Below are positions 53,827-62,305 of a stretch of DNA of 64,000 nt, in pieces. The DNA is taken from contig JANQOW010000137.1 of NCBI GenBank assembly GCA_028285595.1, positions 62,001-126,000 of the forward strand, written 5' to 3'. Under the pieces are notes generated by a model, which was given only the letters and a program-made list of their open reading frames with translations, did no database searches and was not told the DNA's origin. A program made the position numbers and the translations under genes. Source of the stretch: Hyphomicrobiales bacterium. GTDB taxonomy: Bacteria; Pseudomonadota; Alphaproteobacteria; Rhizobiales; CAJQND01. Each line of letters opens with the position of its first letter. Position 1 is the stretch's first letter.

Positions 53827-54618
53827 CTAATTAGCTGCCGCGCCCGCCTTAACCTCCGGATCGTAATCGTAGTGCCAGGGCTCAAACGGGGTCTGTAGAG
53901 GACCGACAAACGAGGGGCCGGCCGCCTTTATGCTGGCGTTCAGCTTCTCAGCCCAGCCCTCTTCCTGCCAGACCTTTTCGATGTCGGTGAGGCGGGTGCC
54001 GGCGAAAATCTTGCCGTCTTTCATGATCTGAAAATCCACGGCCCTGGCGCGGCCGTGGCGCGACATGCCTGGGGCGGCCAGATAGGCGCGGCGGGTGACT
54101 TTGAACCCTCTCAGCCAGGTCCAGAACTTTTTCGGCTCCCACTTGGCGGGCTCTTCGCCTTCCGGCTCAAACGTCTCTTTCCAGGCTTTGAAGATCTCCT
54201 CGGCAGCGACGCCGACCGAGCTGTTCTTGTTCCAGTTTTTGATTTGAACATCGAGGCTGCGCACCCGCGTGCCGGCGTAAAGCTCATAGCCGGGGTTGGC
54301 GGCGGCGAAGTGGGCCACGACCTCACCGACCTCCGCCAGCAGGGCTTCTTGCTCGGCCGAGCCGCGATAAGCTCTGATCTGCTTCTCCGTCCAGCTCCAG
54401 CGTTGCACCAGGGGTGTTCGCGAGCGGGCATAGCTGCGCAGTGCGAGCAGGCGGCGGCCCAGGTCTGGGATCTGCAGAAGCGTGTCTTTGGCAGGTGAAT
54501 CCGAGAGGTCTTCAAAGATGCTTTCCAGCCGGCTCGGCTCCTCCGCCCGGGCCACAGGGGCGCCGGTGAAGCTCAAGACCAGCAAAACGAGTGCGCAGCG
54601 GCGCATGACCCCCGTCAT
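53827..54618 (-). CDS. VanY-like M15 family peptidase, exported
   Basis: A 263-residue exported protein. A signal peptide ends near residue 25 (APVARA-EE). The C-terminal domain has SRHGRARAVDF, corresponding to SxHxxGxAxD with Ala for Gly, and EPWHYDYD, giving the zinc ligands His, Asp, His and the catalytic Glu of M15 D,D-carboxypeptidases. Likely acts on peptidoglycan side chains. The gph gene ends three bases before its... start region on the same strand, so the two form a unit with gph first. Confidence 0.82.
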   Translation of the reverse strand: MTGVMRRCALVLLVLSFTGAPVARAEEPSRLESIFEDLSDSPAKDTLLQIPDLGRRLLALRSYARSRTPLVQRWSWTEKQIRAYRGSAEQEALLAEVGEVVAHFAAANPGYELYAGTRVRSLDVQIKNWNKNSSVGVAAEEIFKAWKETFEPEGEEPAKWEPKKFWTWLRGFKVTRRAYLAAPGMSRHGRARAVDFQIMKDGKIFAGTRLTDIEKVWQEEGWAEKLNASIKAAGPSFVGPLQTPFEPWHYDYDPEVKAGAAAN

Positions 54619-59277: not shown

Positions 59278-59955
59278 ATGGACGTTCACGAAGCCATCAT
59301 GTCGCGCCATTCCTGCCGGCGGTTCAAATCCGATCCGGTGCCCGAAGACGCCTTGCGGCGGATTCTGACCGGCGCCGGCAAGGCACCGAGTGGGCACAAT
59401 ACTCAGCCGTGGAAAGTCTATGTGGTGCAAGGTGCCGCGAAAGAGCGGATCACTGAGAAGGCGCTTGCCGCCGCGCAAGGGATCTCATCGCTGAAGGCCA
59501 GCGATCCTGAGTTTGACTATTACCCAACCAATTGGTTTGAACCCTATCTGGAGCGGCGCCGGGCCACCGGATTCGGGCTCTATGGGGCGCTGGGCATCGG
59601 GCGCGATGACAAACAGGCGCGCGGTGAACAAATGCTCCGCAACTTCAAGTTCTTTGACGCGCCTGTTGGTCTTTTCATCACCTTCTCACGCCGCATGTCA
59701 GTGGGCTCGTTCATGGATATCGGCATGTTCATTGAGAACATTCTGATCGGGGCCAGAGGCGAGGGGCTCCACACCTGCGGTCAAGTGGCCTGGTGCTCGC
59801 ACCATCAGTTGATCCGCGAAGAGCTGGGGATCGACGAAGATGAACTCCTGGCGTGCGGCATCTCGGTGGGCTACGGGGTTGAGGATGCGCCGGAGAACGT
59901 CTGGCGCACAGATCGGGCCGGGATTGATGAATGGGTGACGTTCTACAATGAGTGA
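59278..59955 (+). CDS. nitroreductase family protein
   Basis: A 225-residue FMN-dependent nitroreductase. MSRHSCRRFKSDPVP is the FMN-phosphate site, GKAPSGHNTQPWKVYVV the typical SxxNxQPW stretch, and GEGLHTCGQVAW and GVEDAPENVWRTDR close the fold. GGAGAGA lies before the ATG at 59278. It probably reduces quinones or nitro compounds with NAD(P)H. The gene follows the bicupin by 81 bases. Confidence 0.88.
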   Translation: MDVHEAIMSRHSCRRFKSDPVPEDALRRILTGAGKAPSGHNTQPWKVYVVQGAAKERITEKALAAAQGISSLKASDPEFDYYPTNWFEPYLERRRATGFGLYGALGIGRDDKQARGEQMLRNFKFFDAPVGLFITFSRRMSVGSFMDIGMFIENILIGARGEGLHTCGQVAWCSHHQLIREELGIDEDELLACGISVGYGVEDAPENVWRTDRAGIDEWVTFYNE

Positions 59956-60190
59956 AGCTTCGCCGCGTTGAATCCAGTTCTCAAGTAAAAATTCAAATAT
60001 AAATCTCCCGAATGGCAATATTTCAACAATATTGTTTGAATTCTCTGTCCATTCTCTGAATTTGTTTGACTCAGATTTCTGTTTTTTATTTAATGAAGTT
60101 GGAGGGGCGCACTGCAACCCGTGCTGAGGGTGAAGTTTGCTCAGCGGGGTTGATGTTCAGACTCACACCATCACCGATGGAGCTCCTCAG
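59956..60190 (+). promoter_or_regulatory. AT-rich control region with palindrome and helical-phase repeats
   Basis: This stretch is far richer in A and T than its neighbours between 59985 and 60095. CAATATT-TCAAC-AATATTG (60016-60034) is a perfect inverted repeat. ATTCTCTG occurs at 60040-60047 and again at 60051-60058, 11 bases apart. GTTGGAGGGG and the following bases lead into the protease gene. It is likely a regulated promoter; the composition also fits acquired DNA. Confidence 0.55.
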
Positions 60191-62305
60191 ATGTCAAACC
60201 ATGAATTTCACAATCGGGTTCTCGATGCGCGGCCCGACAGAATAGACTTTCGCGACAGGCCCTATTCGCCGCCGCTCGTGTCGCTGCCGGCCTCGTTCCC
60301 CTCTGAGGAAGAGATCTCCCACTATCTGCCCGAATATCACCGGACGTCAAAGATCCTTGATCAGGGCCGGGAAGGGGCGTGTACGGGCTTTGGGCTTGCG
60401 GCGGTCATCAACTACACCCTGTGGGACAACTGGCTGCGCAGGAACGGCGGCGACCTGGAGGCGGGGGACCGCCCGGAGCATGTCAGCCCTTGGATGCTCT
60501 ATGACAATGCACGGGTCTACGATGAATGGGAGGGGGAGGATTATTCCGGATCAAGCTGTCGCGGCGCCATGAAGGGATGGCACAAGCACGGGGTCTGCCG
60601 GTCAGAACTGTGGGAGAAGCGCAGTCGGCGCACTCCCCGACCGGATCCGACCTGGAGTTCGGATGCCGCGCTGCGCCCGCTGGGAGCCTACTACCGGGTG
60701 GATGTGCGCTCGATCAGTGACATGCAGGCGGCGGTCCGCGAGGTGAGGGCCGTCTATTGCTCTGCACGCGTCCATGCCGGCTGGTGGTTGGAAGGCCGGC
60801 AGCAGACCCAATCCGTCGCGGGTCTGGAACTCCCCCTGATCGAACTCCATGAGAAGATCACCGGCGGACACGCCTTCGCTGTTGTGGGTTACACGCCTTA
60901 CGGTTTCATTGTGCAGAACTCTTGGGGGCCAAGCTGGGGCATGAAGGGGTTTGCGGTTCTGACCTATGATGACTGGGCGCGCAATGGAGACGATGCCTGG
61001 GTGGCAGCGATTGCCGCGCCCATGCGCGTTGCCGAGAAAGTCTCCGTGCCTGCGGCCCGATCGCGCGGCGGATCGGAAATGTCCACGTCGACCTTGAGCG
61101 CGGCGATCCAGACCACAGCCAGCAAAGGGCCCTGGAGTGAAGCCAAGGCCTATGAGCATTCGGTTGTGATGGGCAATGACGGCAAGGTGTTGCGGCGCCT
61201 TGTGGACACGGCTGACCCGGCCGACAATCTGCGCAAAGTCGTGTTTGAGCTGCCGCAAGCGGCGATCGACAGCGGCAAGAAACACATTCTGGTTTACGCC
61301 CACGGCGGGTTGAACAGCGAAGAAGATGCAATCAACCGTGCCCGCCACCTTGGGCCCTGGTTTGATGCCAACGGCATTCACCCGATCTTCCTTGTGTGGC
61401 GCACCTCTTTGATGGAGTCCATCGGGCAGATCGGCGGCGACATTGTGGGGCCGTTCCTGAAGCAACGCGAGGAGATGCGCTCGCGCGGCATTGGAGATCT
61501 TGTGGACCGCGCGCTGAACAAGATGCAGAACAAGTTCGACAGCGCCTTCGAGGCCGCCGCGGAGAAGGTTTTGGGTAAGGCGGTTTGGTCACAGATGAAG
61601 CAGAATGCCGAGGCGGCCGCCAACGGGAACGGCGGCACGCGGCAAGTGACCAACATGCTGAAAGAACTGAGCGCGGCGCAGCCTGATGCGTCTTTCCACA
61701 TGCTGGGGCATTCTGCGGGCTCAATCCTGCTGGGCCACATGCTGGACGACATGAACCCGGACATCAGGCTCGGCACGTTCGGGCTTTATGCGCCCGCCTG
61801 TTCATTGCGCTTTGCGGTTCGGCACTTTGGTGGCGCCTTGCGCAAAGGCGTGTTGGCACCGGGCCAGCTTCATGTGGACAATCTAACCGATCAAAATGAG
61901 CGTGATGACACGGTGGGGCCTTACGGCAAATCATTGCTCTACCTTGTGAGCCGGGCGTTCGAAGATCCTCGCAAGATGCCTCTTATGGGGTTTGCGAAAT
62001 GCTGGGATCCGAAGACCAGCGATCTGAAGGAGCTCAAGGAGCAGTTCGGCGCAGACTTTGCCGACAGTCATATCAAGGACATTCGGGACTGGGACGCGAT
62101 TGCTGATCAGTTCGGCGTGAAGCACACGGCGCATAAGCAAAAGCAGGTTGTGACCAGGATCTCGACAAATGACGCCGAGGAACTGAAAATCGACATTGCG
62201 CATGGCAGCTTTGACAATGATATCGCGGTCGTCAGCGGCTCGGTGGCCAGAGTGTTGGGGCAATCCAAACCCAGAGTTCCCATCACGAATTTGGTAGGGT
62301 ATTAG
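60191..62305 (+). CDS. C1-family (papain-like) protease fused to an alpha/beta serine hydrolase
   Basis: A 704-residue protein. The N-terminal papain-like domain (about 10-290) has DQGREGACTGFG with Cys64, GGHAFAVVGY with His227 and VQNSWGPSWG with Asn243, a complete C1 triad. After a linker, the C-terminal part (about 350-600) reads as an alpha/beta hydrolase: VYAHGGLNSEEDA with an HGG oxyanion segment and MLGHSAGSILLGH with Ser508. No signal peptide is seen, so it may be cytoplasmic or exported by another route. The ATG at 60191 fits; an upstream frame from 60137 is less likely. No prodomain is visible. Confidence 0.78.
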   Translation: MSNHEFHNRVLDARPDRIDFRDRPYSPPLVSLPASFPSEEEISHYLPEYHRTSKILDQGREGACTGFGLAAVINYTLWDNWLRRNGGDLEAGDRPEHVSPWMLYDNARVYDEWEGEDYSGSSCRGAMKGWHKHGVCRSELWEKRSRRTPRPDPTWSSDAALRPLGAYYRVDVRSISDMQAAVREVRAVYCSARVHAGWWLEGRQQTQSVAGLELPLIELHEKITGGHAFAVVGYTPYGFIVQNSWGPSWGMKGFAVLTYDDWARNGDDAWVAAIAAPMRVAEKVSVPAARSRGGSEMSTSTLSAAIQTTASKGPWSEAKAYEHSVVMGNDGKVLRRLVDTADPADNLRKVVFELPQAAIDSGKKHILVYAHGGLNSEEDAINRARHLGPWFDANGIHPIFLVWRTSLMESIGQIGGDIVGPFLKQREEMRSRGIGDLVDRALNKMQNKFDSAFEAAAEKVLGKAVWSQMKQNAEAAANGNGGTRQVTNMLKELSAAQPDASFHMLGHSAGSILLGHMLDDMNPDIRLGTFGLYAPACSLRFAVRHFGGALRKGVLAPGQLHVDNLTDQNERDDTVGPYGKSLLYLVSRAFEDPRKMPLMGFAKCWDPKTSDLKELKEQFGADFADSHIKDIRDWDAIADQFGVKHTAHKQKQVVTRISTNDAEELKIDIAHGSFDNDIAVVSGSVARVLGQSKPRVPITNLVGY

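Follow-up and report, generated by a model that had tools for sequence, protein, structure and literature searches.

A papain-like protease fused to a lipase-type serine hydrolase in a Hyphomicrobiales bacterium, probably a self-destruct or defence effector

Several described bacterial systems contain parts of the arrangement analysed here. Kaur et al (2020; PMC7159879) independently report that papain-like and lysozyme domains accompany NucA-trypsin systems, and that caspases are paired with α/β-hydrolases in VMAP systems. In tested antiphage systems, proteases activate nucleases, and caspases or trypsins unmask an MBL-type nuclease (Tuck et al, 2025; PMC12799240). Prokaryotic C1A peptidases are commonly single-copy and often multidomain, and the multidomain forms were explicitly left unanalysed in a 2023 survey (PMC10380794). 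No publication describing a papain-hydrolase fusion was found in the open-access literature; in the literature searched, both the theme and its parts have been described, and the fused core with its range of partners was not encountered.

The gene in question encodes such a fusion of a C1 peptidase and an α/β-hydrolase (704 aa; 60191..62305, forward strand, of the window, the whole 64,000-nucleotide stretch of DNA analysed). Its family resembles the “System 3” of Kaur et al in that a trypsin-NucA gene lies beside the fusion gene in alphaproteobacteria, in its papain- and lysozyme-like parts, and in the involvement of multiple peptidase clans. It differs in carrying papain and α/β-hydrolase in one chain, which is not mentioned in the available parts of that article. 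NucA and trypsin do not adjoin the window gene, though they do so in four related loci. EAD1, to which a subset of the papain-like effectors of System 3 is coupled, was found neither in the fusion protein nor anywhere in the window's genome (G000); among 22 carriers, one has EAD1 elsewhere in its genome. Operons of Campylobacterota that combine a Lamassu-type MBL nuclease and a caspase with the fusion gene resemble caspase-nuclease (canu) loci (PMC12799240), but their order is MBL, caspase, fusion gene, whereas in canu the caspase precedes the nuclease and the description includes no C1-hydrolase. The canu combination of a caspase and a gated MBL nuclease in one operon is absent around the window gene and present beside two homologues (L028 and L032). 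System 3 and canu are thus the closest kinds described so far, and the window gene belongs to neither of them. With the VMAP ternary systems (PMC7159879), the family has in common an α/β-hydrolase accompanied by a caspase or other cysteine protease, the likeness being one of hydrolase class; neither VMAP nor MoxR-vWA was identified as a partner at the fusion loci.

Two predicted enzymes in one chain

Frame and coordinates of the gene, as proposed by an earlier sequence-only reading, were correct. A GGAG is located at 60179-60182, 8 nt 5′ of the ATG at 60191, which is favoured over an in-frame TTG at 60137 because alignments of close relatives begin at this residue. That the fusion is a reading error or due to chance is ruled out by frame, conservation, and structure. 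Of the AT-rich control region proposed upstream, the composition stood (59990..60090; 28% GC at −200 to −100 versus 59% overall), but it is not constant among relatives. A conserved promoter element in this stretch was rejected, as it contains no sigma-70-like match and GC is not low in all relatives.

The AlphaFold2 model of the whole protein, for which a 72-row alignment was the input, had a mean pLDDT of 89.6 and a pTM of 0.88; only residues 114-117 and the linker (284-309) fell below 50. The papain half (residues 1-278; 60191..61024, forward strand) includes a conserved N-terminal RPDxxDFRD segment. Its match to Peptidase_C1 (PF00112) was barely above the Pfam cut-off (E 4e-4; 20.9 versus 20.7 bits). 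Xylellain (3ois) matched over residues 15-272 (phmmer, E 1e-9) and was the best structural match as well (VIA-align; Z 25.6, rmsd 2.9, 239 residues, 28% identity). The likeness extends to the fold, the active-site residues, and the N-terminal segment; the difference is that xylellain is a single-domain protein without a hydrolase half. Cys64 (60380..60382), His227 (60869..60871), and Asn243 (60917..60919; all forward strand), previously read as a clan CA site, are conserved in 80 of 80 aligned family members, as is Gln58, and D16, D19, R21, and D22 of the N-terminal segment are invariant in the same 80 sequences. By its predicted fold and its Gln/Cys/His/Asn active site, the first half belongs to papain family C1A, xylellain-type. 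A classical prodomain is absent, as had been stated, but the conserved N-terminal stretch matches the N-terminal part of xylellain.

The two halves are joined by a linker predicted to be disordered (residues 284-309; 61040..61117, forward strand; pLDDT <50), which across the family is variable in length and Ser/Ala-rich. Arg and Lys are not enriched there; a protease-sensitive linker was therefore rejected, and cleavage at this site by a caspase or trypsin is without support.

Since the structure list for the whole model was filled by papains, the hydrolase half (residues 312-704; 61124..62302, forward strand) was folded and searched separately (AlphaFold2; pLDDT 94.1, pTM 0.92). It resembles lysosomal phospholipase A2, the A. 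fulgidus lipase, LCAT, and many others at low identity (∼5-17%) and with Z between 11 and 12.8, from which no substrate is readable; the Tle-type T6SS lipase 8boz is also among the fold matches. It shares the GHSAG elbow and the core fold with these lipases and with DUF900 (PF05990), but its DUF900 scores (17.7 and 19.7 bits) lie below the Pfam cut-off of 20.5, and its nucleophile strand is preceded by a helical insertion (∼407-496) that contains the conserved motif GKAxWxEMKENA. The nucleophile Ser508 (61712..61714, forward strand) is present in 78 of 80 family members, and the two exceptions are overlapping pieces of a single gene (in G031) which has Gly at this position and intact papain residues. 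Candidate catalytic acids, Glu570 or Asp573 (61898..61909, forward strand; 79/80 and 77/80), lie between the nucleophile and a candidate catalytic His671 (62201..62203, forward strand; 78/80), and the oxyanion-type HGGL at 371-374 is nearly invariant in the 80 sequences. As modelled, the second half is a lipase-type α/β-hydrolase in which GxSxG elbow, acid, and His follow in this order. Where Pfam just admits the first half and leaves the second below its cut-off, structure assigns both folds.

The sequence-only reading had held both hydrolase sites to be intact within one chain, a view that homologues without the serine, or a prediction without an α/β-hydrolase core, would have contradicted. 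Relatives retain Ser508, one gene excepted, the predicted structure has that core, and both sites are supported by family conservation and predicted folds. The conservation of papain and hydrolase residues across the family indicates that selection has kept both sites.

Spread of the family and setting of the window copy

In the genomes of 84,980 species, one scan detected 193 related stretches. The best 80 of these include members of Alpha-, Beta-, and Gammaproteobacteria, Campylobacterota, Verrucomicrobiota, Planctomycetota, Bacteroidota, Acidobacteriota, Cyanobacteriota, and Thermodesulfobacteriota; judged by these matches, the papain-hydrolase fusion is an old family of at least eight phyla. 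Its distribution is very patchy, with a full-length copy in 11 of 387 alphaproteobacterial genomes. In cyanobacteria, the hydrolase half was found in only 1 of 146 genomes. A phage origin was rejected, the hydrolase half having no match in 50,697 phage records; a full-length copy was present on one IMG/VR contig, which looks bacterial. Near that copy lies a restriction-endonuclease-looking gene (L155:3086-4072, reverse strand) without a PADLOC match. In two other loci (L011:9998-12110 and L025:3334-5490), the fusion gene is split into several frames, which represents either decayed copies or assembly errors. The family tree separates a long form, which includes the window copy, from a shorter one. 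The closest relatives of this copy on the tree belong to other families or orders (Salaquimonas, Geminicoccaceae, and Rhizobiaceae), which suggests that it was acquired by transfer.

The window gene is solitary and the single copy in its genome, in line with the earlier statement that it stands alone, and is located in the gap between cupin and gor in a housekeeping neighbourhood. A nitroreductase-like gene (59278..59955, forward strand) shares this gap. In the sister species, a member of the same genus, the order is rpiA-DUF2059-cupin-gor; both genes are missing there, and cupin and gor are 136 bp apart. Therefore, ∼3 kb, nitroreductase-like gene and fusion gene together, were gained here or lost there. 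That the fusion gene is patchily distributed and missing from the sister species is consistent with an accessory gene. Neither NCBIfam nor PADLOC (E up to 10) had a match to the fusion protein, so that a defence system known to PADLOC was rejected. No obvious defence island, sensor NTPase, or linked sensor gene was found around the window copy.

Partner enzymes in related loci

A survey of the genome context of homologues, as the sequence-only reading had proposed, revealed caspase, trypsin-NucA, Lamassu-type MBL nuclease, endolysin, and lysozyme partners. Most loci, the window's among them, show no such partner gene; flanking genes were picked as longest ORFs, by which weak or short neighbours may be missed. 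In 102 near neighbours, the only Pfam family represented more than twice was Peptidase_C14 (six members), and few immediate neighbours matched PADLOC defence models. In six loci, of Campylobacterota where named, a caspase gene with an intact YSGHG/DSCHSG-type dyad lies immediately 5′ of the fusion gene, on the same strand and with gaps of a few nt. In two of these (L028 and L032), the caspase is preceded by an MBL-fold gene that matches the PADLOC models LmuA (E 4.6e-78 and 7e-72), Avs1a, and RTasMBL. One near neighbour matched LmuA at 1.8e-87 and was not recognised among ten rescanned neighbours. The MBL-fold gene carries HxDxDH and PHHGS motifs, which resemble those of ComEC-type enzymes.

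A trypsin-NucA gene adjoins the fusion gene in four alphaproteobacterial loci, at gaps of 23-36 nt. As this gene was matched in only 10 of 387 alphaproteobacterial genomes, chance adjacency is very unlikely. The four loci are related, corresponding to two changes on the tree, and three of them are within the 11-row clade that holds the window copy. The window's genome has an intact trypsin-NucA copy (motifs TNHHV, GSSGSP, and DRGH), which is unlinked and on a different contig (C125). Across alphaproteobacteria, trypsin-NucA occurred in 2 of 11 carriers of the fusion versus 8 of 376 others (p 0.03), a weak association for which genome size and kinship are confounders. Caspases occurred in 8 of 11 carriers versus 85 of 376 non-carriers (p 7e-4), likewise confounded by both. 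In the window's genome itself there are 17 caspase-domain matches, some of them clustered (e.g., C36, C59, C66, and C128).

Other partners are part of the chain or encoded in a row with it. A phage-type GH19 endolysin is fused N-terminally in 12 loci of one clade (99% support; phrog_181, E 2e-64), and a phage-lysozyme-like domain, also N-terminal, in about five. The papain-hydrolase gene with the Ser-to-Gly exchange (G031; L137:8058-14493) is followed in an operon-like row by a GDSL-lipase-caspase fusion and subtilisin genes. On plasmid pA of Kovacikia minuta (L140:7116-10100), a 994-aa chain joins peptidoglycan amidase, a hydrolase of the family described here, and caspase with an intact dyad, without papain, and on plasmids of Paracoccus and Roseivivax (L086:7071-9602 and L087:6912-9788), trypsin precedes papain and the hydrolase half is degenerate. 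Read from these gene orders and fusions, exchange of attack enzymes around a papain-hydrolase core is a recurring theme in the relatives.

Possible roles of the fusion protein

Earlier, a processing enzyme, a toxin, and a defence effector had been named side by side. The partners of relatives tilt the choice towards a conflict or cell-death effector, but the window copy itself lies among housekeeping genes; a role in self-destruction or defence is the probable one. Specifically, and with a probability of roughly one half, the protein would be an intracellular bifunctional executioner in a conflict or cell-death system centred on proteases, directed against an invader or suicidal. This reading builds on what was computed, i.e., the fusion, the folds, the conserved active sites, and the partner enzymes of relatives. 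The protein would presumably act in the cytoplasm: once a sensor or a partner protease has fired, the fusion enzyme would be activated, its xylellain-type half would cut selected proteins or a pro-enzyme partner, and its lipase-like half, joined to it by a flexible linker, may attack lipids or another ester, by which the cell would be disabled. The proposed activation by a partner and the suicidal or antiphage outcome follow the precedents of Kaur et al (2020) and Tuck et al (2025). Likely partners in the window's genome would be those encoded elsewhere, the trypsin-NucA gene and the caspase-domain proteins.

In a special and rather unlikely form of the executioner, the protease half would only activate, by cleaving a partner or the hydrolase, and the serine hydrolase would be the sole effector; activator and pro-enzyme would then share one chain, much like nuclease-protease pairs. 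A disordered linker between well-predicted domains, the exchange of the protease partner (papain, caspase, or trypsin-papain) around the hydrolase, and the precedent of proteolytic unmasking (PMC12799240) are consistent with this. However, loss of the hydrolase serine in G031 with retention of the papain residues, and the degenerate hydrolase halves of the trypsin-papain proteins of Paracoccus and Roseivivax, argue that the protease can matter alone. It is about equally improbable that the protein is an ordinary cytoplasmic enzyme of processing or scavenging which hydrolyses peptides and esters and whose neighbours in other species are incidental. A mostly solitary gene, single-copy in the window's genome and in housekeeping surroundings, would fit such a role, as would the generic lipase-type fold matches and the single-copy, multidomain habit of prokaryotic C1A peptidases (PMC10380794); the repeated adjacency of attack hydrolases at operon-like spacing in separate clades, the occurrence in so few alphaproteobacterial genomes, and the absence from the sister species speak against it.

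It is similarly doubtful that the protein is aimed at other bacteria, as an antibacterial or lytic effector that is delivered to them or set free on them and attacks protein, lipid, and, in the fused versions, peptidoglycan. The GH19 and lysozyme-like fusions and the Tle-type lipase among the fold matches point in this direction, and T6SS delivery needs no signal peptide. The T6SS sheath gene was found in 6 of 7 GH19-fused carriers versus 6 of 49 others, a link confounded by Burkholderiales kinship. However, the sheath gene (VipB) was not found in the window's genome and is missing from 44 of 56 carriers searched, no T6SS family was among 25 listed of the 73 families in the flanks of GH19-fused loci, and the closest relatives have no conserved small neighbour fit for an immunity gene. 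As a general role, a T6SS effector was rejected for the window's genome, in which no sheath gene was found; for the GH19-fused kin it is a possible one.

In its at least eight phyla, the family connects a protease of cathepsin-like kind and an enzyme resembling lipases with caspases, Lamassu-type nucleases, NucA, and endolysins. If the preferred reading of an executioner holds, the fusion is a new effector pairing for protease-activated bacterial immunity. More tentatively, such proteins might form an unrecognised class of immune or cell-death executioners, a cathepsin-like protease plus lipase that individual lineages have combined with caspase, trypsin-nuclease, Lamassu-type nuclease, and endolysin modules. 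This would be a prokaryotic parallel to lysosomal-type cell death, in which protein, lipid, DNA, and wall are hit together.

Some further genes were observed in passing. Beside the trypsin-NucA gene of the window's genome lies a gene (L102:4819-6708, reverse strand) for a 629-aa apparent membrane protein with an α/β-hydrolase-like N-terminus, possibly a further partner. The gene after the 994-aa chain of Kovacikia has a metallopeptidase-like HEITHALLDG motif and no Pfam match, and the Paracoccus and Roseivivax fusions each adjoin a divergently oriented, very long (∼7 kb) hypothetical gene. Related amidohydrolase genes (phmmer, E ∼1e-19) are found near the fusion gene in Verrucomicrobium (L020:12025-13398) and Sulfurovum (L042:7674-9023). 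In the window, positions 53827-54618 (reverse strand) encode a protein that contains a 'SRHGRARAVDFQ' motif; it is apparently secreted and may be a muramyl peptidase, of M15 type or related.
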